From Subtercola boreus (GTDB taxonomy: Bacteria; Actinomycetota; Actinomycetes; Actinomycetales; Microbacteriaceae): DNA of 64,000 nt. The translations under genes and the position numbers were made by a program. Positions 21,709 through 32,385 of the stretch are shown here, one piece after another; positions within the stretch are counted from its first letter, which is position 1; each line of letters starts with the position of its first letter. The notes below the pieces were generated by a model. It had not been told where the DNA came from. It did no database searches and saw only the letters and a program-made list of their open reading frames with translations. Location of the stretch: contig NZ_VFOO01000001.1 of NCBI RefSeq assembly GCF_006716115.1, forward strand, positions 2,232,001-2,296,000. The letters are read 5' to 3'.

Positions 21709-22086
21709 ATGTTCACCACGACAGGCGCGTTCAGTGGATTCTCCGTCGACGACATTCCCGCAGCACGCAGATTCTACGGCGAAACCCTCGGACTCACGGT
21801 GACCGACAACGAGATGGGTTTCATCGAGCTGCACCTGCCGAGCGGCGGCACCGTGCTCGCCTACCCCAAGCCGAACCACGAGCCGGCGTCGTACACGATG
21901 CTGAACTTCCCCGTCGAGAACATCGATACGGCGGTGGATGACCTGCGGAGCCGCGGCGTCGACACCAACATCTACGCGGGGGGCGGCATGCCTGTGGACG
22001 AGAAGGGCATCATGCGGGGCAACGGGCCCGACATCGCGTGGTTCCGCGACCCGGCGGGCAACGTGATCGCGGTCATCCAGGTCTGA
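21709..22086 (+). CDS. VOC-family (glyoxalase-like) protein
   Basis: 125-aa vicinal-oxygen-chelate fold protein: [22 protein letters not shown] at the start, [38 protein letters not shown], and the ending [20 protein letters not shown] 21709 with GGAG five bases upstream is preferred to ATG 21685. It is divergent from the TetR regulator, which suggests inducible detoxification or degradation of a small compound. Metal ligands cannot be assigned with confidence. Confidence 0.88.
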
Positions 22087-22190
22087 CGCTCTGGCAGCGC
22101 CGGGCCGCCATACAGCGGGTACTCTTCACTGTCGGTCGTGCGTGCGAGACTGCCGCGAAGACGTAGCGACCCGGACCGAGGAGGTGTGAC

Positions 22191-23828
22191 ATGGGTGCCC
22201 TGACCCAGGCGCGGGCCCTCCGCCCCTTCCGGGTTCCGCAGTACCGGCTGCTCGTGGCGGCCCTCACGTTCTCGCTCTTCGGCTCGGGCATGTGGCTCGT
22301 CGCGGTCGTCTGGCAGGTCATCGCGCTCGGCGGCGGGCCGACCGACCTGTCCCTGGTGGCAGCCGGGGCGAGCGTGGGGCTGGTCGCAGCGGTGCTCGTC
22401 GGCGGAGTTGCAGCCGATCGCGTGCCGCAGCGCGCCATCCTGATCTCGACCGAGTCCGTCAAGACGGCCACCGTCGCCGTCGTCGCCGCGCTCGCCCTCA
22501 GCGGGACCCTGTCCCTCTGGCACCTGGTCGTCGCCTCGACGCTGCTCGGGGTGGTCGACGGCTTCTTCTACCCGGCGTACTCGGCCCTGTTGCCGTCAGT
22601 GCTGCCACCGGATGACCTGCTCGCCGCGAACGGAGTCGAGGGCATGCTGCGGCCGGCCCTGATGTCCGCAGCGGGTCCAGCCGTGGCGAGCGCGGCCATC
22701 GCGGCCCTCTCCCCCGGGCTGGCGTTCGCGCTCGTGGCGGTGTCGCAGGCGGTCGGGGTGGGGGTGCTCGTCGCGATGCGCCGGGCGAACGCGGTGGGGG
22801 TGGCGTCGTCGGCGTCGGCGGGTACCGTGGCAGTCCCGGCAGGGGCGAGGGCGTCGGCGTCGCCGTCGTCGGGTGCCGTGGCGGCCCCGGGTGGGGCCAG
22901 GGAGGCGGCGGGTACCGTGGCGGTCCCGGGTCGGGCTGGGGCGTCGGTGGAAGCCGGAGTAGCCCAGGCTACGGCGGGTGGCACGGAGGTCGCCGGCACG
23001 ACGGAAGACGTCTGCGCGGCGGGGCTCGCCAGCACGGCGGTCAGCGCCGGCTCGGATGCAGGCGCCGGCACGGGGGCCAGCACGGCAGGAGTCACCGGTG
23101 CGGCGGACGGCAAGGGCGAGCGGTCCGCGCATCCACTCCGCGGAGCGTTCGGTGACCTCGTCGGCGGGTTCCGCTACATGGTGACCACCCCGTGGCTGCT
23201 GGCCACGCTGCTGTTCGCGAGCCTGCTCGTGCTCGTCGTCATGGGGCCCATCGAGGTTCTGTTGCCCTTCGCCGTACGCGACCAGACGGGCGGCGGAGCG
23301 GGCTCGTTCGCGCTGGTGCTCACCGCGTACGGGGTGGGCGGCATCCTCGGCTCCCTCACCGTCGCCTCGCTGCGGCTCCCCCGCCGCTACCTGACGATCA
23401 TGACGTTGCTCTGGGGTGCAGGCGTCATCCCGCTCGCTGTCGTCGGCTTCTCCAGCGAGCTGTGGATGATGATCGTGGCCCTGTTCGTCGTCGGCTTCAC
23501 CTTCTCGGCCGCCACCGTGATCTGGGGCACCCTCCTGCAACGCCGGGTGCCGAGCCACATGCTCGGCCGGGTCTCGAGCCTCGACTTCTTCGTGTCGCTG
23601 CTCTTCATGCCGATCTCGATGGCATTCGCAGGTCCCATCGGGGAAGCCGTCGGCCTGCAGCCTGCCTTCCTCGTGGCGGGACTCGCCCCGGTGTTCCTCG
23701 CCGTCATCGCGATCGTGGCGGCGCGGATGCCACGCGACGAGGTCGCGCACCCCCTCGACGACTACGCGGGCGGCGAACTCACCCCGCCCGCGGCCACGGC
23801 CACGCCCGCTCCCGCCCTCGACCGCTAG
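22191..23828 (+). CDS. MFS transporter with expanded central loop
   Basis: 545-aa major-facilitator exporter of the MFS_3 (enterobactin/macrolide exporter-like) type. FRVPQYRLLVAALTFSLFGSGMWLVAVVWQV is the first helix pair, the conserved GVAADRVPQR loop follows helix 2, and the second half starts at GAFGDLVGGFRYM. Between helices 6 and 7, residues about 203-312 are a low-complexity Ala/Gly/Val/Ser/Thr stretch encoded by GC-rich near-repeats; relatives have a much shorter loop there. GAGGAGG seven bases upstream supports ATG 22191. Substrate unknown; drug or siderophore export is usual for the group. Confidence 0.87.
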   Translation: MGALTQARALRPFRVPQYRLLVAALTFSLFGSGMWLVAVVWQVIALGGGPTDLSLVAAGASVGLVAAVLVGGVAADRVPQRAILISTESVKTATVAVVAALALSGTLSLWHLVVASTLLGVVDGFFYPAYSALLPSVLPPDDLLAANGVEGMLRPALMSAAGPAVASAAIAALSPGLAFALVAVSQAVGVGVLVAMRRANAVGVASSASAGTVAVPAGARASASPSSGAVAAPGGAREAAGTVAVPGRAGASVEAGVAQATAGGTEVAGTTEDVCAAGLASTAVSAGSDAGAGTGASTAGVTGAADGKGERSAHPLRGAFGDLVGGFRYMVTTPWLLATLLFASLLVLVVMGPIEVLLPFAVRDQTGGGAGSFALVLTAYGVGGILGSLTVASLRLPRRYLTIMTLLWGAGVIPLAVVGFSSELWMMIVALFVVGFTFSAATVIWGTLLQRRVPSHMLGRVSSLDFFVSLLFMPISMAFAGPIGEAVGLQPAFLVAGLAPVFLAVIAIVAARMPRDEVAHPLDDYAGGELTPPAATATPAPALDR

Positions 23829-23879
23829 TCGAGCGCCGCTCCCACCCCGCCCCCTCGCGGCCCTCGCGCCATCCGACCC

Positions 23880-24024
23880 GGATTGTCGCTTCCGCGCCTG
23901 CCTCGCGCCCCGTGCGTCTCTCGCCATCCGCCGCACCGCAGCGGCGCTCCCCCGCCACCCCTACCGCGCTATCCGCCGCGGATTGTCGCTTCCGCGCATG
24001 CGCGCGCAGGCGCGAAAGCGACAA
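23880..24024. repeat. GGATTGTCGCTTCCGCGC repeats with inverted partner
   Basis: GGATTGTCGCTTCCGCGC occurs at 23880-23897 and again at 23980-23997. An inverted arm GCGCGAAAGCGACAA at 24010-24024 pairs with the second copy over 15 positions with one mismatch. The copies are preceded by ATCCGACCC and ATCCGCCGC, resembling the centres of the palindromes at 24901-24964 and 29658-29719. The rest of the gap 23829-24110 holds no gene. Confidence 0.7.
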
Positions 24025-24110
24025 AGGGGCACGGGAACCACCTTCGCGGCGATGCCTACGGCACGCGAGCCGCGGCCGCGCTGGCGGAACCCGGCGCGGC
24101 CCGCGCCCGC

Positions 24111-24869
24111 TCAGCGAGCGCGGTTGGAGAGCGTGCCGAGGCCCGCGATAGAGATGTCGACCGTCTGGCCGGAGCTGAACGGCGAGACGCCCGCGGGCGT
24201 TCCCGTCAGGATCACGTCGCCGGGCAGCAGGGTGAACGCCCGCGAAGCGTAGGCGACGATCTCGGGAATCGTGAAGATCATCTCCGAGAGATTGCCCTCC
24301 TGCCGGAGCTCCCCGTCGACCCGGGCCTCGATGAGGGCATCGCGCCAGTCGAACTCGGTCTCGATGTACGGTCCGAGCGGGCAGAACGTGTCGAACCCCT
24401 TTGCCCTGGCCCACTGCCCGTCGAGCTTCTGCAGGTCACGCGCCGTCACGTCGTTCGCGATCGTGTAGCCGAAGATCACGTCGGCGTAGTCTTCCGCCCG
24501 CACGTTCTTCGCCACGCTGCCGATCACGATCGCCAGCTCCGCCTCGTGCTCCACCTGCCGGCTGTCGGGTGGCAGAACGATCGCGTCTCCCGTTCCGATC
24601 ACCGACGTGTTCGGCTTGAGGAACAGCAGCGGCCGCTCGGGCACCACCCCACCCATCTCCGCAGCATGGTCGGCATAATTCTTGCCGACCGCCACCACTT
24701 TGGAACGCGGGATGACCGGGGCCAGCAGTTTCACCGAGGCGAGCCCAACGCGCTCCTCGGTCGTGACGAACCCCTGGAACATCGGGTCGCCCTGCAGCAC
24801 CACGATCTCGTCACCGTCGATGATGCCGTACTGGGGATCTTCGCCTGAGCTGAATCGCGCTATCTTCAC
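24111..24869 (-). CDS. Fumarylacetoacetate hydrolase family protein
   Basis: 252-aa FAH-fold enzyme. VVAVGKNYADHAAEMG is the typical start of the catalytic domain. Metal ligands come from VEHEAELAIVIG (two Glu) and GYTIANDVTARDLQ (Asp), and the ending GDVILTGTPAGVSPF is diagnostic. Members are hydrolases, isomerases or decarboxylases of 2-oxo/1,3-dicarbonyl acids such as fumarylpyruvate or oxaloacetate. It is a conserved neighbour of gltX and ilvE/leuB in actinobacteria. GTG 24869 has TAGGGT six bases upstream. The exact substrate is undetermined. Confidence 0.92.
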   Translation of the reverse strand: MKIARFSSGEDPQYGIIDGDEIVVLQGDPMFQGFVTTEERVGLASVKLLAPVIPRSKVVAVGKNYADHAAEMGGVVPERPLLFLKPNTSVIGTGDAIVLPPDSRQVEHEAELAIVIGSVAKNVRAEDYADVIFGYTIANDVTARDLQKLDGQWARAKGFDTFCPLGPYIETEFDWRDALIEARVDGELRQEGNLSEMIFTIPEIVAYASRAFTLLPGDVILTGTPAGVSPFSSGQTVDISIAGLGTLSNRAR

Positions 24870-24875
24870 GCATCA

Positions 24876-24881
24876 ACCCTA
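24876..24881 (-). promoter_or_regulatory. -10 element TAGGGT for the FAH-family gene
   Basis: TAGGGT-TGATGC-GTG on the minus strand. It lies between the start codon and the palindrome at 24901-24964, so the gene has its own promoter after ilvE. Confidence 0.6.
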
Positions 24882-24900
24882 CTCGCGCGACATCCACCGC

Positions 24901-24964
24901 CCATCGAGTGGGCGCTTTGGGCCCCATCCGACCGGATTTGGGGCCCAAACTGCCCACTCGATGG
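24901..24964. repeat. Intergenic palindrome, copy A
   Basis: 64-bp inverted repeat with 25-base arms (23 of 25 paired) starting CCATCGAGTGGGC and ending GCCCACTCGATGG. Both arms carry GGGCCCC cores, and the 14-base centre contains the smaller palindrome ATCCGACCGGAT. It lies 22 bases past the ilvE stop and before the FAH promoter. Confidence 0.92.
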
Positions 24965-24986
24965 AGGTGGGCCGGCGGGGCGGGGG

Positions 24987-26093
24987 TCAGGCGTCGAGGC
25001 GGGTCAGCCAGTTGTGCGTGTCGGGGATGCGGCCGTACTGGATGTCGGTCAGCTCCTGCCGGAGCGACATCGTGAGCTCACCGGCGGGGGCGTCCGCCGA
25101 ACCGAGCGCAAAGTCGTCGGCGAGCAGCTGGGCGACGGGCGTGATGACCGCCGCGGTGCCGCAGGCGAACACTTCGACGATGTCACCGGATGCCGAACCG
25201 GCCTTCCACTCCTCGATCTCCACCTTGCGGATCTCCACGTTGTGTCCGCGGTCGCGCGCCAGCGTCATGATGCTGTCGCGCGTGATGCCCGAGAGGATGC
25301 TGTCGGATTCGGGGGTGACCAGCGTGCCGTCCTTGTAGACGAGGAAGAGGTTCATGCCGCCGAGCTCTTCGAGATACTTGCCCTCCTGCGAGTCGAGGAA
25401 AAGCACCTGCGCGCAGCCCTTCTCGTAGGCGAGCTCCTGCGGCAGGAGCGATGAGGCGTAGTTGCCGCCCGTCTTGGCGGCGCCCATCCCGCCCCGGCCG
25501 GCGCGGTTGTAGTCGGTCGAGAGCCAGATGTTGACAGGCGACACACCATTGGAGAAGTAGGCGCCGGCGGGCGAAGCGATGAGGTAGTAGCCGACCTTCT
25601 GCGCCGAGCGCACACCGAGGAAGCTCTCGGTGGCGAACATGAAGGGCCGGAGGTAGAGGCTCGTCTCGGGCGCGTCGGGCACCCAGGAACCGTCGACCGC
25701 GACGAGCTGCCGGAGCGATTCGATGAAGTCCTCGGTCGACAGTTCGGGCAGCGCGAGCCGCTGGGCCGAGCGCTGCAGGCGGGCCGCATTCGCCTCGGGG
25801 CGGAAGGTGTGGATCGACCCGTCGGCGTGCCTATACGCCTTCAGCCCCTCGAAGATCTCCTGTGCGTAGTGCAGCACGGAGGCCGCGGGGTCGAGCGAGA
25901 TAGGTCCGTACGGCAGCACCTGGGCGTCGTGCCAGCCGCCGTCGAGCGTCCACTCGACGGAGACCATGTGGTCGGTGAAGTGCTTGCCGAAACCGGGGTC
26001 GGCGAGGATCGCCTCGCGCTCGGCCTCGGCACGGGCATCCGTCGACGGGGTGAGCGAGAACGAGAGCGGGAAGGATGTGGCGGTGCTGGTCAT
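24987..26093 (-). CDS. ilvE: Branched-chain amino acid aminotransferase
   Basis: 368-aa fold-type IV PLP enzyme for the last step of valine, leucine and isoleucine synthesis (and first step of breakdown), using glutamate. [18 protein letters not shown] is typical near residue 75, the PLP lysine lies in [14 protein letters not shown], and [17 protein letters not shown] and [12 protein letters not shown] are conserved. The last part, [14 protein letters not shown], holds the cofactor-phosphate contacts. Its ATG overlaps the leuB stop by four bases (ATGA), so leuB-ilvE form an operon. It is followed by palindrome copy A. Confidence 0.97.
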
Positions 26094-27178
26094 GATGGTG
26101 TCTCCTCGGAAACGAGCTCGGAGCTGAGCAGAGTGACGATGGCGTCGCCGACCTCGGCGGTTGTGCGGCTGCCGGAGGCGGCGGTTCGGCCGGCGAGGTC
26201 GCCGGTGACGGCGGTGCGGATCCTCGTCGCCGCCTCAGGCAGACCCTGCTGGTCGAGGAGGAGGGCGACGGAGAGGATCGCGGCTGTCGGGTCGGCGATC
26301 TGCTGGCCTGCGATGTCGGGAGCGGAACCGTGAACCGGCTCGAACATGCTGGGGAAGGCGCCCGTCGGGTTGATGTTTCCCGAGGAGGCCAAGCCGATGC
26401 CACCGCTGATTGCGCCGGCCAGATCGGTCAGGATGTCGCCGAAGAGGTTGTCCGTGACGATGATGTCAAACTTAGCAGGGTTCGTCACGAAGAAGATCGT
26501 CGCGGCATCCACGTGCAGGTAGTCGACGGCCACGTCGGGGTACTCGGTGGCCACGGCGTTGACCGTGCGCATCCAGAGGTTGCCACTGAAGACGAGCACG
26601 TTGTTCTTGTGCACCAGCGTGAGCTTCTTGCGCGGCCTGCTGTTCGCCAGGTCGAAGGCGAATCTCACGACGCGTTCGACACCGAAGGCGGTGTTGACCG
26701 ATACTTCGTTCGCGATCTCATGCGGGGTGCCGACACGGATCGCGCCGCCGTTGCCGACGTACGGGCCCTCTGTACCCTCACGCACGACGACGAAGTCGAC
26801 CTCCCCGGGGTTCGCGAGCGGACTCGTGACACCGGGGAAGATCGTGGTCGGCCGCAGGTTGACGTAGTGGTCGAGAGCGAAACGCAGTTTCAACAGCAGC
26901 CCGCGCTCGATGTTCGCGTCTTTCAGGCGCGGGTCGCCGGGCACCCCGCCGACGGCTCCGAGCAGGATCGCGTCGTGCGAGGCGATCGACGCGAGGTCGT
27001 CGTCGGTCAGCACGTCACCGGTGGCGAGGAATCGCGCCGCGCCGAGCTCGAACGGCGTCTTCTCGAACGTCACGTCGGCGCCCGGAGCGACCGCGTCGAG
27101 CACCTTCAGCGCCTCGGCGACGACCTCGGGGCCGATCCCGTCCCCGGGAATGACGGCAAGACGAATGACGCGAGACAT
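26090..27178 (-). CDS. leuB: 3-isopropylmalate dehydrogenase
   Basis: 362-aa NAD+-dependent beta-decarboxylating dehydrogenase of leucine synthesis. [19 protein letters not shown] opens the protein, [16 protein letters not shown] supplies substrate arginines, and [34 protein letters not shown] holds the metal-binding Asp residues. [14 protein letters not shown] binds the cofactor. ATG 27178 has GGAG six bases upstream. Coupled to ilvE. Normal length for the actinobacterial form. Confidence 0.97.
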
Positions 27179-27250
27179 GGCGGCTCCAGCACTGGATCGG
27201 GATTGTTCCCTCCACAGTACAACCCGCCGCTCACGGCTGGCGCGCCGCCA

Positions 27251-27313
27251 GATCGAGTGGGCAGAAGGGGCCCGAAAGCAGGGTCTTTTGGGGCCCGAAC
27301 TGCCCACTCGATC
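27251..27313. repeat. Intergenic palindrome, copy B
   Basis: 63-bp inverted repeat: GATCGAGTGGGCAG at 27251-27264 pairs perfectly with CTGCCCACTCGATC at 27300-27313. The inner GGGGCCCGAAAG and CTTTTGGGGCCC arms pair with small bulges. It lies upstream of leuB and past the MFS stop, and the 80 bases to its right are G-rich low-complexity DNA. Confidence 0.9.
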
Positions 27314-27395
27314 ACGTGGCGAGGAGCCGGGGGGCGGGGGGTGGGGAGCCGGGGGGGGGCGCGGGGCGGGGCGGAGGGCGGGGAGCCGGCGGGGG

Positions 27396-28961
27396 CTAGC
27401 CGCGGGCCTTGCGGAGGGTGACGAGCGCGAGCACGGTGGCCGCCACCATCAGGGCCGCACCGATGCCACTGGTCACGACCACTCCGCTGTCGAAGGCCTC
27501 GCGGGCCGAGTGCAGCAGCGCCTGGCCGAGGCTGTACGGCAGATCCCCGGCCACGCTCACCGCGCCGCCGAGGGTCTCCGTCGAGGCCGAGGCCTGCGAC
27601 TCGGAGAGTCCGACCGGCAGCACCAGGCTCGACCGGTAGAAGGCGGTGAGGATGCTCCCCAGCACGGCGGTGCCGAGCACCGCACCGAGCTCGTAGGCGG
27701 TCTCGGAGACAGCGGAGGCCGCCCCGGCCTTGTGCTCCGGAACCACGGAGATGATCAGGTCGTTCGAGATCGTCTCGGCCGCCCCGATCCCGATGGCGAG
27801 CACGACGAACGCGATCGTGAGGGTGGCCGCCGTTGCGCTCTGGCCGGTGAGCATCACGATGGTGTACGCGATCGCGGAGAGCACGAGGCCGCCCGCCACG
27901 ACGATGTTCGGACGTACCCAGCGCACCAGCGGAACGACGGCGAGGCCCGCCACGACCATCACGATGAGGCCGGGGACGAGGGCGAGCGCAGCATCCATCG
28001 GCTGCATCGCCAGCACCAGCTGAAGGTGCTGCGAGACGAAGAACAGGAAGCCGACGAGCGCGATGACGCTGAGCAGATTCACCAGCACTGCACCGCTGAA
28101 GGCGCCCACCCGGAACAGCCGCATGTCGAGCATGGGGTTCGGCGAGGCCAGCTGGCGGCGCACGAACAGGATGCCCGCCAGCACGCTGAGCGCGAGCAGA
28201 CCGAGATCGCTCCAGGCCGCACCCTCCGTCGCGACCGACTTGATGGCGAAGACCACAGGCACGAGCATCACCATGGAAAGGCCGATGCTGATGAAGTCGA
28301 GGCGGCCGGGGTTCGGATCCTTCGACTCGGGGATGAGGAACGGGCCGAGCACCAGCAGCGGGATCAGCACGGGCACGGCGATGAGGAACACGCTGCCCCA
28401 CCAGAAGTGCTGCAGCAGCACCCCGCCGACGATCGGGCCGAGAGCCGCACCCGCGGCGAAGCCGGCCGACCAGATGGCGATCGCCAGGCGGCGCTGGCGG
28501 CGGTCCGCGAAGATACTGCGGAGAAGCGACAGGGTCGACGGCATCAGCATCGCACCGAAGAACGCGAGGGCGCCGCGGCAGGCGATGAGAGCCTCCGCGG
28601 TCGGTGCGAACGCCGCGACGATGGAGAGCAGGCCGAAGCCGGTGGCACCGATCATGAGCAGCTTGCGACGGCCGACACGGTCACCGAGGTTGCCCATCGC
28701 GACCAGGAGGCCGGCGAGCACGAGCGGGTAGGTGTCGATGATCCAGAGCTGGGCGGTGGCCGTCGGCTGCAGGGTCTCGGAGATAATCGGCAGGGCGAAG
28801 CTCAGCACGGTGTTGTCGACGGAGATGAGCAGCACCGGCAGCATGAGCACGGCGAGGGCGAGCCAGCCGCGGGGCCCGACGCGCAGGTCGGTGGGTTCGG
28901 CTGCGCCGAGGACCTTGCCGGAGTGGCTGGGAAGGGTGATGGGGCGGGTGTAGCTGGTCAT
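27396..28961 (-). CDS. DHA2-type MFS multidrug exporter
   Basis: 521-aa, about 14-helix drug:H+ antiporter. [21 protein letters not shown] in helix 1 is the DHA2 (EmrB/QacA) signature, [16 protein letters not shown] is the motif-A loop, and [24 protein letters not shown] is motif C. ATG 28961 lies 65 bases downstream of a strong -10 (29026-29031). The divergent TetR gene at 29072 and an operator placed between -35 and -10 make this an inducible efflux unit. Substrate unknown; QacA-like cationic drugs are typical of the family. Confidence 0.93.
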
Positions 28962-29025
28962 GATTCGTTTCTGGCTGAAGGCTGTGCCCGGGCATCCAGA
29001 GTCGGAGCGTTCGGGTTGTGCTCTC

Positions 29026-29054
29026 AGTATACCGTCCAGCCGGTACAGTGGCAA
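29026..29054 (-). promoter_or_regulatory. MFS promoter TTGCCA-N17-TATACT
   Basis: On the minus strand TTGCCA (29054-29049) and TATACT (29031-29026) are separated by exactly 17 bases, close to the housekeeping-sigma consensus, driving the exporter at 27396-28961. Confidence 0.75.
29028..29047. promoter_or_regulatory. TetR operator dyad between -35 and -10
   Basis: TATACCG and CGGTACA form a near-perfect dyad (one mismatch, 6-base spacer) in the spacer of the exporter promoter. A bound repressor would block polymerase. It also lies just upstream of the -10 of the divergent tetR gene, allowing autoregulation. Confidence 0.65.
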
Positions 29055-29059
29055 GCCGA

Positions 29060-29065
29060 TACGAT
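29060..29065 (+). promoter_or_regulatory. -10 element TACGAT for the tetR gene
   Basis: TACGAT, six bases, ATG 29072. The transcript is probably leaderless. Confidence 0.55.
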
Positions 29066-29071
29066 AGGGCT

Positions 29072-29626
29072 ATGACTTCAGTGCCAGCCCGTGACCGGGT
29101 GCTCGATGCGTTCGAGAGCATCCTGATCTCGCAGGGCGAACGGGCGGCGACGCTCGAGGCGACAGCGACAGAGGCCGGGGTGAGCAAGGGCGGGCTGCTC
29201 TACCACTTCGGATCGAAGGATGCGCTGGTCGAGGGGCTGCTGGCACGGCTGGTGGAGCTCGTCGATGTCGACGTCGAGCGCATCCGCACGGCGGAGACCG
29301 GGCCGATCGACTACTTCCTCCGGAGCTCACTGAACCTCGAAAGCGACCTCGACCGCGCGATCATCGCCACGACACGCCTGGCACAGGGGTCGCACCCGCA
29401 GGCCCGCGACGCGCTCAAGGCGATGCAGGTGGCCTGGTTCGACGTGATCGTCGAGGTGGTGGGCGACAGGGCCCTCGCCCGCACCATCATGCTGATCGGT
29501 GACGGGCTGTACTACAACTCGGCGCTGCTGCCCGGCGGGCTCGGCGAGCTCGATCCGAAGAGCGACGACATGGACGAGGTCATCGCTCTCGTCAACACCC
29601 TCGTGGCGGCCCGCGCCCGCGCCTGA
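29072..29626 (+). CDS. TetR-family repressor of the divergent exporter
   Basis: 184-aa regulator. The HTH spans about residues 10-55: RVLDAFESILISQGERAATLEATATEAGVSKGGLLYHFGSKDALVEGLL, with the recognition helix at SKGGLLYHF. The C-terminal region resembles TetR_C_37-type ligand domains (DRAIIATTRLAQGSHPQARDALKAM). It probably represses the DHA2 exporter through the dyad at 29028-29047. ATG 29072 is chosen over ATG 29018 because TACGAT lies in between. It is followed by palindrome copy C. Confidence 0.9.
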   Translation: MTSVPARDRVLDAFESILISQGERAATLEATATEAGVSKGGLLYHFGSKDALVEGLLARLVELVDVDVERIRTAETGPIDYFLRSSLNLESDLDRAIIATTRLAQGSHPQARDALKAMQVAWFDVIVEVVGDRALARTIMLIGDGLYYNSALLPGGLGELDPKSDDMDEVIALVNTLVAARARA

Positions 29627-29657
29627 CCCCTCACCCGCCCGGCTCCCGCCGAGGCGG

Positions 29658-29719
29658 CAACGAGTGGGCAGTTTGGGCCCCAAATCCGCGGACATAGGGC
29701 CCAAACTGCCCACTCGTTG
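29658..29719. repeat. Intergenic palindrome, copy C
   Basis: 62-bp element with perfect 23-base arms (29658-29680 and 29697-29719) that include GAGTGGGCAGTTTGGGCCC. The 16-base loop is centred on the perfect palindrome TCCGCGGA. It sits between the convergent tetR and serA genes. A 32-bp imperfect duplication (GGGTCGCTGGC...GCCGGGGCC) follows at about 29720-29791. Confidence 0.95.
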
Positions 29720-29795
29720 GGTCGCTGGCGCGCCGGGGCTCGCCGGGGCCCCAGTCGTCGGGTCGCTGGCTCGCCAGGGCCCGCCGGGGCCGGGG

Positions 29796-31385
29796 TCAGT
29801 CGGTGATGTCGATCTCGGTCAGCACGTCGGCCGCGATGGCGGCGCGCACGCGCTCGATGAGCTCCTCGGGGGCCGGCGAGTCGATCGTCAGCACGCTGAG
29901 GGCCTTGCCGCCCGCGGCCGTGCGGGCGATCTGCATGCCGGCGATGTTGATGGATGCGTCGCCGAACTCCTTGCCGTAGACCGCGACGATGCCGGGGCGG
30001 TCGTCGTAGATCATCACGAGGAGGTGCTCCGCGAACGGAACCTCGACGTCGTACCCGTTGATCTCGACGATCTTCTCGATCTGCTTGGTGCCGGTGAGCG
30101 TGCCCGAGACCGAGATCTGCGATCCGTCGCTCAGGGCGCCTGTGAGCGAGATGACGTTGCGGTACTCCTCGGAGACCGCATCGGTGATCAGCCGCACGGT
30201 CACCCCGCGCTGCTCGGCGAGCAACGGCGCGTTCACGTACGACACGGTCTCGCTGACCACGTTGGTGAAGATGCCCTTGAGTGCGGCGAGCTTCAGCACG
30301 CTCACGTCGAAGGCGGCGATCTCGCCACGGATGACGACGTCCACCGAGGTGAGCGGGCTGCCCGCGAGCCCCGCGAACACCTGGCCGAGCTTCTCGACGA
30401 GTGCGATGCCCGGTCGCACCGAAGGGTCGATCACTCCGCCGGCGACGTTCACGGCATCCGGAACCAGCTCACCCGAGAGCGCGAGACGCACGGACTTGGC
30501 GACAGAGACGCCCGCCTTCTCCTGCGCCTCGTCGGTCGACGCGCCGAGGTGAGGCGTGACGACGACGTTCTCGAGGCCGAGCAGCTTGTGGTCGGTGGGC
30601 GGCTCGCTGACGAACACGTCGAGACCGGCACCCGCGATCACACCGGAGGTCAGCGCGCGGAACAGCGCGTCTTCGTCGATGAGCCCGCCGCGCGCGACGT
30701 TCACGATGTAGGCGGTCGGCTTCATCAGGGCGAGCTGCTCGTCGGAGATCATCCCGGTGGTCTCGGGCGTCTTCGGCATGTGGATCGTGATGAAGTCGCT
30801 CTGGGCGAGCAGTTCATCCAGAGTCAGCAGGGTCACGCCGAGCTGCTGCGCTCGGGCCGACGTGATGTAGGGGTCGTAGGCGACCACATTCGTGCCGAAC
30901 GCCTGCATGCGGGCCGTGATGAGCGCGCCGATGCGCCCGAGGCCGATGATGCCGACCGTCTTCTCGTAGACCTCGGTGCCGGTGTACTTCGACCGCTTCC
31001 ACTGCCCCTGGGCGAGCGCACTGTGCGCCGCGGGAATGTGGCGGGCGAGGCTCAGGATGTGGCCGACCGTCAGTTCGGCGGCCGAGATGATGTTCGACGT
31101 GGGGGCGTTGACGACCATCACACCGGCACTGGTCGCGGCCTTGATGTCGACGTTGTCGAGGCCGACGCCCGCGCGGGCGATGACCTTCAGTTTCGGCGCG
31201 GCCGCGATGGCCTCCTGGTCGACCTTGGTCGCCGAGCGCACGAGGATCGCGTCTGCCGTGGCGAGCGCCGACAGCAGGGCCGGGCGGTCGGTGCCGTCGA
31301 CGTTGACCACGTCGAAGTCAGGGCCGAGGGCCTCGACGGTGGCAGGGGAAAGTTCTTCTGCGATCAGCACGACCGGTTTTGACAC
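29796..31385 (-). CDS. serA: D-3-phosphoglycerate dehydrogenase
   Basis: 529-aa enzyme for the first step of serine synthesis (3-phosphoglycerate to 3-phosphohydroxypyruvate, NAD+). The NAD-binding loop is VGIIGLGRIGALIT near residue 145, catalytic Arg is in NVARGGLIDE, Glu in VFVSEPP, and His in VVTPHLGAST. The long form is complete: an intervening domain about 315-450 and a C-terminal ACT domain (HLLVMIYDDRPGIVAVYGKEFGDASINIAGMQIAR) for serine feedback. GTG 31385 has AAGGA eight bases upstream. It stands alone in its transcription unit, downstream of the ilv operon. Confidence 0.97.
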   Translation of the reverse strand: MSKPVVLIAEELSPATVEALGPDFDVVNVDGTDRPALLSALATADAILVRSATKVDQEAIAAAPKLKVIARAGVGLDNVDIKAATSAGVMVVNAPTSNIISAAELTVGHILSLARHIPAAHSALAQGQWKRSKYTGTEVYEKTVGIIGLGRIGALITARMQAFGTNVVAYDPYITSARAQQLGVTLLTLDELLAQSDFITIHMPKTPETTGMISDEQLALMKPTAYIVNVARGGLIDEDALFRALTSGVIAGAGLDVFVSEPPTDHKLLGLENVVVTPHLGASTDEAQEKAGVSVAKSVRLALSGELVPDAVNVAGGVIDPSVRPGIALVEKLGQVFAGLAGSPLTSVDVVIRGEIAAFDVSVLKLAALKGIFTNVVSETVSYVNAPLLAEQRGVTVRLITDAVSEEYRNVISLTGALSDGSQISVSGTLTGTKQIEKIVEINGYDVEVPFAEHLLVMIYDDRPGIVAVYGKEFGDASINIAGMQIARTAAGGKALSVLTIDSPAPEELIERVRAAIAADVLTEIDITD

Positions 31386-31468
31386 GAAGGGATTCCTTAC
31401 GATGAAGCGCCGGCGGCGGGCTCGCGGGCGACGTAGCCCCTCAACTTTAGTGCCTGCAGAATGGGAGC

Positions 31469-31867
31469 ATGGAATCAGGGACTCAGAGCGTCATACACCT
31501 CGTCGTGACGATCGCACTGGCGGCCGTGTTCCTGCTGATGGGGGTGAACCATTTCGTTCCGTCGTCGGTGCGCACGATGGCCGCGATGATCCCGCCGGCG
31601 CTGCGGAGGCCGGGCATCCTGAACCCCCGGAACCTCGTGTACCTGACCGGGCTCTGCGAGGTGGCCGGGGGCATCGGGCTGCTGGTGCCCGCGCTGCGGC
31701 TGCCGGCGGCGGTGGCGCTGGTCGTTTTCCTGGTGGCGGTGTTCCCGGCGAACGCGTACGCGGCGGGGCAGCGGGAACGGTTCGGGGCGCTGGCGATCCC
31801 GCTGGTGCCGCGGGCCATCGGGCAGGTGGTGCTGATCGCGCTGGTGCTGTTCGCCGGGCTGGGCTGA
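31469..31867 (+). CDS. Small DoxX-like membrane protein
   Basis: 132-aa protein with four hydrophobic segments: LVVTIALAAVFLLMGVNHFVP, LVYLTGLCEVAGGIGLLVPAL, AAVALVVFLVAVFPANAYA and AIGQVVLIALVLFAGLG. The GVNHF start and the TGLCEVAGGIGLL motif match DoxX-like small membrane proteins. GGGAG just before ATG 31469 serves as ribosome-binding site. It is divergent from serA; no functional tie is visible. Confidence 0.82.
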   Translation: MESGTQSVIHLVVTIALAAVFLLMGVNHFVPSSVRTMAAMIPPALRRPGILNPRNLVYLTGLCEVAGGIGLLVPALRLPAAVALVVFLVAVFPANAYAAGQRERFGALAIPLVPRAIGQVVLIALVLFAGLG

Positions 31868-31884
31868 CGGGCGGTGCTGTCGCG

Positions 31885-31948
31885 GGCGGGTTCCGGGTGC
31901 CCGGGGCCGGCGTTGCAGGCGGGTTCCGGATGCTCGGGGGCCGGCGTT
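31885..31948 (+). repeat. 30-bp imperfect direct duplication
   Basis: GGCGGGTTCCGG followed by TGCCCGGGG and CCGGCGTT occurs at 31885-31914 and again, with three changes, at 31918-31948, between two convergent gene ends. Confidence 0.8.
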
Positions 31949-31956
31949 CAGCGGGG

Positions 31957-32385
31957 TCAGATGACGAACGGCACGATGCTGCGGTAGAGGCTCTGCAGGT
32001 CGAGGGTGAACACCGCCACGACGGCGAAGCCGACGAGGAACACCAGCAACGCCGAGCCGGCCCGCAGCCGCCGGGTGCCCCAGAGGATGAGCGCATAGAC
32101 GAGGATCGGCACGACGATCAGCCCGACGAGGGTGAAGACGGCGTTTCCGGGCATGGCGACGTCCACGCTGGCGAAGGACTGGCTGAGTCCGATCAGGTTC
32201 GACAGGCCCTGGAAGGCGTCGAGGGCGTAGAGGAACGCGAAGACGATGGCGACGATCCAGCCGGCGCGGCCGCGCACACGCTTGGCGGGCCGCTCGGCTC
32301 GCCCGGCCCGGGTCTGCTTGGCGGAACGCGCCGGCTTGGCGGGCCGCTCCGACTTCGCGGACGGAGGCAGTGCTTCGGAGGTCAC
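31957..32385 (-). CDS. Membrane protein with basic N-terminal tail
   Basis: 142-aa protein of unknown function. Residues 1-45 are Ala/Pro/Lys/Arg-rich (AKSERPAKPARSAKQTRAGRAER) and must be cytoplasmic. Three membrane helices follow (about 48-65, 80-105 and 115-135). GTG 32385 starts two bases after the stop of the upstream gene, so the two are translationally coupled. The partner has a long acidic/Thr-Ala tail, opposite in charge to this one, which could suggest interaction, but that is speculation. Confidence 0.72.
   Translation of the reverse strand: MTSEALPPSAKSERPAKPARSAKQTRAGRAERPAKRVRGRAGWIVAIVFAFLYALDAFQGLSNLIGLSQSFASVDVAMPGNAVFTLVGLIVVPILVYALILWGTRRLRAGSALLVFLVGFAVVAVFTLDLQSLYRSIVPFVI

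Follow-up and report, generated by a model that had tools for sequence, protein, structure and literature searches.

A family of palindromes at gene 3' ends in Subtercola boreus whose arms change in concert between species

The locus and its three palindromes

The stretch of DNA considered here, the window, comprises 64,000 nucleotides and corresponds to 2.23-2.30 Mb of the 4.21-Mb genome of Subtercola boreus (Microbacteriaceae). Around its genes ilvE, leuB and serA, three gene ends carry a long palindrome of the same kind (Table 1). An earlier note on this DNA had proposed them as copies of an undescribed intergenic family, and a direct check of the sequence confirms their positions as well as their placement between genes at 3' ends. 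In the following we describe this family, whose members are probably bidirectional 3'-end hairpins that act at the RNA level without a U-tract, are under selection, and have arms that are homogenised within each species.

As previously noted, the arms of copy 3 are perfect and form a 23-bp pair; those of copy 1 mismatch at two bases (GC vs AG) and those of copy 2 at three (AGAAGGG vs AGTTCGG). With up to three mismatches, a 19-nt arm has six matches in the window, where 0.02 are expected. The predicted folds of the window copies reach -50 to -61 kcal/mol, and a set of six RNA folds gave -50 to -62 kcal/mol with z-scores of -7.9 to -11.6. A terminator scan of positions 22000-32000 made no call at any of the three palindromes, and an Rfam scan of the window at the gathering score returned three tRNAs only, so that the palindromes match no curated family.

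Table 1 Palindromes and neighbouring genes in the window
Feature	Position	Strand	Family or profile	Context
Palindrome copy 1	24901..24964			Between ilvE (about 24 bp past the ilvE stop) and the FAH-hydrolase gene, tandem; copy absent from G002, G003 and G007
Palindrome copy 2	27251..27313			Between the 3' end of the MFS gene and leuB, tandem; copy present in relative G003, absent from G002
Palindrome copy 3	29658..29719			Between convergent TetR and serA genes; copy present in G003, absent from G002
FAH hydrolase family gene	24111..24869	-	PF01557	Neighbour of copy 1
ilvE, branched-chain aminotransferase	24987..26093	-	TIGR01123	3' end at copy 1
leuB-type 3-isopropylmalate dehydrogenase	26090..27178	-	NF002898	
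MFS exporter gene	27396..28961	-	PF07690	3' end at copy 2; open reading frame start possible up to 29054
TetR-family regulator gene	29018..29626	+	PF00440	3' end at copy 3; start by codon-usage caller 29099
serA, phosphoglycerate dehydrogenase	29796..31385	-	TIGR01327	3' end at copy 3, opposite side

A genome-wide family at gene 3' ends

Searching the whole genome with the 19-nt arm at the same threshold yields 52 forward and 53 reverse matches, compared with 0 and 1 for a reversed control. A covariance model trained on 51 copies of this genome finds 54 sites, all of them on both strands with E ≤3.2e-4, plus one doubtful match, so the three palindromes do belong to a family with further copies. 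The core of this family reads ATC GAGTGGGC RR TTTGGGCCC, followed by a 16-nt loop and the complement, and spans about 54 bp. Across 51 separate sites the arms are uniform and the loops are not; loop length is 16 nt at 49/53 sites and 17 nt at 4/53. A loop motif of the type ATCCGnCGGA, described in the earlier note, is absent from copy 2 and is not a trait of the family. The sites include doublets and one triplet. All 100 listed arm matches, out of 105, fall inside the 51 paired sites, and none of them was seen to frame a gene.

Two long stretches are free of copies (G000:C1 158-630 kb, and from 3.88 Mb to where the contig ends), and the second contig holds none of the family's sites. Other palindrome types occur as well: one with TTGTCGCTTCCGCGC in its arms lies at 23983-24024 of the window and at L032:4728-4793 of the same genome, and a 59-bp type with TCGAAACCCCGAAA arms is found at L058:1181-1239 of this genome and at L226:7354-7412 of G003.

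Where do these sites lie relative to genes? Genes were called by codon usage, with a caller of our own for which the window served as training set, and not taken from an annotation. Convergent gene pairs flank 30 of the 51 sites and tandem pairs the other 21, with none between divergent genes and none within a gene; the overlap with a called gene end is 25 nt at one site and 1 nt at two. When gaps of at least 75 bp are counted in the loci read, a site is present in 26/41 convergent, 19/88 tandem and 0/55 divergent gaps, that is in 45 gaps, with 139 lacking one (15 convergent, 69 tandem, 55 divergent); these loci were picked for having sites, and the fractions are not genome rates. The same bias is seen in G003, with 21 convergent, 13 tandem and one undetermined site (n=35). 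The median distance from stop codon to hairpin is 30 nt (72 distances), and at tandem sites a median of 84 nt separates the palindrome from the next gene. Six other convergent gaps of at least 60 bp in the window contain no family palindrome, and the family is therefore not the general terminator.

The sites combine a predicted strong, GC-rich hairpin shortly past the stop codon, as in an intrinsic terminator, with the lack of a T-tail already remarked on for the window copies: a run of at least 5 T in 8 nt is found at 0/53 sites on either strand. The flanks are also of unusual composition. Upstream of the hairpin C makes up 61-64% and G 14-16%, compared with 40-48% and 31-32% after stop codons without a site, and downstream of it the transcript is G-rich, tandem sites included. 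Entry sites for the termination factor Rho are characterised by a C-rich, G-poor composition.

Pairing of the arms

The earlier note had argued that compensatory change preserves the hairpin. In a test of 101 sites from four genomes, matched two-sided changes of the arms outside three variable columns number 18, vs a mean of 3.4 and a maximum of 11 in shuffles, and pairing is thus kept. Agreement of the RR dinucleotide between the two arms of a site is raised in this genome (27 vs 19.2 in shuffles, p 0.0085) and shows no excess over shuffles in G003 (p 0.31). Among 25 sequences from Microbacteriaceae, all 25 pairs show two-sided change, and the covariation score is 0.751 vs 0.183 in shuffles, with 0/500 as high; the sequences were picked with a structure model, which favours pairing. 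The family alignment (A2) takes in 21 of the 24 loci L123-L146, with L134, L136 and L141 left out (at L141 no long palindrome was found), and several of its rows come from one genus.

Conservation and concerted change between relatives

In G003, 35 palindromes were read of about 46 (92 model matches over two strands), located with a model of the arms of this genome. A palindrome lies at the same gene end as here in 28/35 cases in G003, 8/9 in G002 and 3/4 in G007, where the own loci available for the test were those holding palindromes and two of the 28 assignments (L229, L230) have wide brackets. The remaining palindromes comprise five without a matching own locus in hand, three one-flank matches, and the second member of a doublet without an own copy.

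Shared sites to which several own copies correspond were left out of the comparison of arms and loops (3/28 in G003, 1/8 in G002). Over the 25 one-to-one pairs with G003, arms differ by 10.6% and loops by 54.7% (equal-length loops only); the flanks differ by about 50%, a value that is overstated because the alignment is ungapped. Most of the arm change in G003 falls in three columns. One of these has T in 90/106 arms here, while in G003 T is found in 14/70 and C in 53/70, and 12/25 shared sites have T/T here and C/C in G003, meaning that both arms have changed. Likewise, the RR dinucleotide is AG in 56/106 arms here and in 62/70 in G003. The loci read have almost the same GC content (0.693 here, 0.689 in G003), so drift in base composition does not account for the T/C difference and was rejected as its origin. 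The arm change between these species is a concerted change over many separate sites.

Six own sites were also traced by their flanking DNA, without the arm model, and G003 has a palindrome at 5/6 of them and G002 at 2/6; no trace of one is left at the empty sites. Copy 1 probably represents a gain in this lineage, judging from the aligned sequences, because its gap measures 117 bp here and the ends of ilvE and the next gene lie 14-16 nt apart, stop included, in G002, G003 and G007. In G001 the counterpart gap is 62 nt long and holds no palindrome.

Other arm types and wider distribution

Other Subtercola genomes have palindromes of similar size with other arms (G001 and G006; G004 and G010; G011; G005 and G008). 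At two gene ends the same site carries species-specific arms, in own/G003/G011/G001 and in own/G003/G006, respectively; these cases make up 3 of 22 loci tested (20 distinct), the other 19 having no two-sided match to an own or G003 palindrome locus.

A palindrome with GTCGGAGCACAGC arms lies at the ilvE gene end in G009 (L152:2631-2685) and G006 (L157/L243). Counted with one mismatch on both strands, GTCGGAGCACAGC exceeds its reversed control in G009 (43/15), G004 (28/19), G010 (28/18), G006 (27/20) and G002 (26/18), and stays at or below about the control level in the other seven genomes, with 16 vs 15 in this one. We regard GTCGGAGCACAGC as a lead towards a second arm type. Several paired 55-bp matches of it are listed in G006 and G004. 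In G005 a tandem array with a unit of about 55-60 bp occupies part of the FAH-hydrolase/ilvE gap (L154).

Beyond the genus, the first model has matches in 59/398 Microbacteriaceae genomes and 25/85 genera. A broader model (R2), built on family sequences, matches 12/12 Subtercola genomes, 104/396 genomes of the order and 50/296 of the class, the own family counted in. Outside Subtercola 58 loci were inspected, and 50 of them have GAG/CTC ends and span 54-57 bp; both features are favoured by R2, in which base pairs and the GAG/CTC end of most training rows predominate, and the span is thus partly ascertained. Matches beyond Microbacteriaceae therefore represent the same kind of palindrome, with common descent not proven. 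At L331, L333 and L324, which belong to family f22 of another order, three genomes of a single genus share palindromes with arms like CGAGCAGACGCAAA, and 12-mers of such palindromes match nine listed papers, five of them on Mycobacterium.

Relation to known systems

Haemophilus has terminators formed by paired DNA-uptake signals. Such terminators from paired signals, which are mentioned in PMC2267715 and PMC1590033, resemble the palindromes here in being sequence-constrained inverted repeats at gene ends. They differ in that no single-arm use is seen in this genome, where the 100 arm matches listed (of 105) are without exception parts of palindromes; a use of single arms as uptake signals was rejected accordingly.

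Structured 3' ends that lack a U-tract have been mapped by experiment in Streptomyces clavuligerus, where bidirectional ends have longer stems (PMC8269248). As here, the organism is a high-GC actinobacterium and the stems are stable and U-less, and its ends are used on both strands, as is predicted for the palindromes here; unlike here, the accessible part of that paper describes no genome-wide family with a common arm sequence. Surveys of stem-loops and inverted repeats (PMC1590033, PMC2267715, PMC13155455) report the same preference for 3' ends and convergent genes, and arms that near terminators are more conserved than spacers; in their accessible parts the Subtercola family and a concerted evolution of arms do not appear.

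Repetitive extragenic palindromic (REP) sequences and REP doublets forming hairpins (REPINs), which go with a REP-associated tyrosine transposase (RAYT), are also short extragenic palindromes with many copies and species-specific types (PMC3116915, PMC3733652). In contrast to them, the Subtercola palindromes come with no GTAG tag or RAYT that we could find, share sites between species, are constrained in place in their arms and have a core of about 54 bp. CGTC-tagged REPs have no dedicated transposase, and the five phyla named for them in the accessible text do not include Actinobacteria (PMC3733652); they are likewise palindromic repeats without a transposase, whereas here CGTC lies near 4/106 ends. 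A search of the published literature, which covered few subscription papers and some texts in part, found no description of the Subtercola family; together with the Rfam result this agrees with its being undescribed.

Interpretation and alternatives

The reading as 3'-end hairpins rests on position, predicted hairpin strength, the absence of T-tails, in-place conservation of the arms and covariation among distant copies. Of the functions considered in the earlier note, a role at mRNA 3' ends is the one that fits best. A palindrome just past a stop codon would be transcribed into a long hairpin, and this hairpin may end or protect the transcript without a U-tail, by termination or by blocking 3'-exonucleases. 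Rho could be involved in ending transcripts, because the stretch upstream of the hairpin is C-rich and G-poor. As the palindrome is symmetric, it would serve both genes of a convergent pair. In addition, something would have to read or homogenise the arms genome-wide, because the difference between species falls on the same arm position at many orthologous sites at once.

Several observations weigh against this interpretation. Among the 51 own copies, whole-structure pairing is 86.3% vs 86.0% with shuffled partners (120/500 as high), which leaves the earlier argument from compensation at the outermost bases weak. The arms are conserved as sequence beyond what pairing demands, a constraint that a plain terminator does not need. 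The U-tract of an intrinsic terminator is missing (0/53), and without it classical intrinsic termination does not apply. The C-rich and G-rich flanks are found at tandem sites too, where one side alone needs a Rho entry site. Locating the G003 copies with an arm model lowers the measured arm divergence, and in the closer relative G002 the contrast between arms and loops is smaller (11.8% vs 35%, 7 pairs). Sites can be empty without a remnant, as G002 lacks a palindrome at 4/6 traced sites. Finally, of 28 Microbacteriaceae loci whose arms have diverged, 24 of them in other genera, three are called divergent and one inside a gene, so that either the 3'-end rule is less strict there or the gene caller is less reliable.

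The uniformity of the arms and their species-wide shift would not be explained by a 3'-end function; either a reader of the arms or a conversion confined to them appears to be needed. One alternative, which we consider possible if doubtful, builds on the former: a putative DNA- or RNA-binding factor would recognise the arms, the palindromes would act as roadblock terminators or insulators, and the arms would co-evolve with the factor. This would fit arms that are uniform over 51 sites with non-uniform loops of nearly fixed length, the T/C difference seen in both arms at 12/25 sites shared with G003, which base-composition drift does not explain at near-equal GC, and the species-specific arms found in the same place at two Subtercola gene ends. 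However, a reader of duplex DNA needs no pairing and yet the two-sided compensation points to pairing, and 0/51 sites are divergent, where promoters lie. Still less probable, in our view, is that copies homogenise one another's arms, by ectopic gene conversion or by template switching, under only mild functional selection. Palindromes can be corrected by template switching, and the same columns differ species-wide; such a process must nevertheless copy two 20-bp arms and spare the 16-bp loop between them, at many sites. A sequence-reading factor is a plausible homogeniser of the arms.

Could the palindromes instead be non-autonomous mobile elements (REP-, REPIN- or MITE-like, the last for miniature inverted-repeat transposable element) that spread once in the past and are tolerated at gene ends only? 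We deem this unlikely, even though the many uniform copies, the species-specific arm types, the apparent gain of copy 1, the clean empty sites, the doublets and the triplet speak for it. A search for Y1_Tnp (RAYT, PF01797) found none in the own genome and was positive in 3/398 Microbacteriaceae genomes; the same search was positive in 5/14 control genomes. The GTAG tag is found at 0/53 sites, and CGTC at 4/106 ends (two on the left and two on the right, over 53 sites). Flanking direct repeats at 53 sites are near chance (4 nt: 2 vs 1.8 in shuffles; 5 nt: 1 vs 0.2; 6 nt: 1 vs 0.1), which does not correspond to the target-site duplications of a MITE or terminal-inverted-repeat element. Different copies do not have loops alike beyond chance (27 pairs vs 16.8 expected, shuffled maximum 33), and copying traceable through loops was rejected accordingly. 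Moreover, the arms are constrained in place as the loops drift, and none of the 100 listed arm matches (of 105) was seen to frame a gene.

RAYT-driven REPs were rejected on these results, given that no own Y1 transposase was found and that there is no GTAG tag and no general target duplication. The suggestion of REP or BIME (bacterial interspersed mosaic element) sequences moved by a RAYT is hence not borne out, and a unit that is currently mobile does not agree with 28/35 shared G003 sites, chance-level direct repeats and unlike loops. What stands of the first interpretation is a structured, T-less, genome-wide family at 3' ends in which pairing is kept. Two further origins were tried and dropped: a nested insertion in older terminator stems, as the two flanks of a site show no site-specific pairing (p 0.12 for own sites, p 0.96 for G003), and spread by phage or plasmid, for which there was a single weak and partial match to a phage (E 6) and none to a plasmid.

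Significance

How transcripts end in high-GC actinobacteria is poorly understood, since many of the ends lack U-tracts. The family described here is a set of gene-end hairpins that can be recognised by sequence and whose arms evolve in concert within species. Related species each retain a hairpin sequence of their own, which suggests that the palindromes are gene-end signals under selection and not remnants of transposons. More tentatively, bidirectional gene-end hairpins might exist throughout the class Actinomycetes, with an arm 'code' read by a lineage-specific trans-acting factor, as factor-dependent terminators or insulators that switch their recognition sequence. If this were true, dozens of sites per genome would rewrite their arms together and in place, keeping a core of about 54-57 bp. 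Some gene ends have the element in one genome and lack it, or carry other arms, in another, and these provide natural experiments on how transcripts are ended and on whether a dedicated factor takes part.

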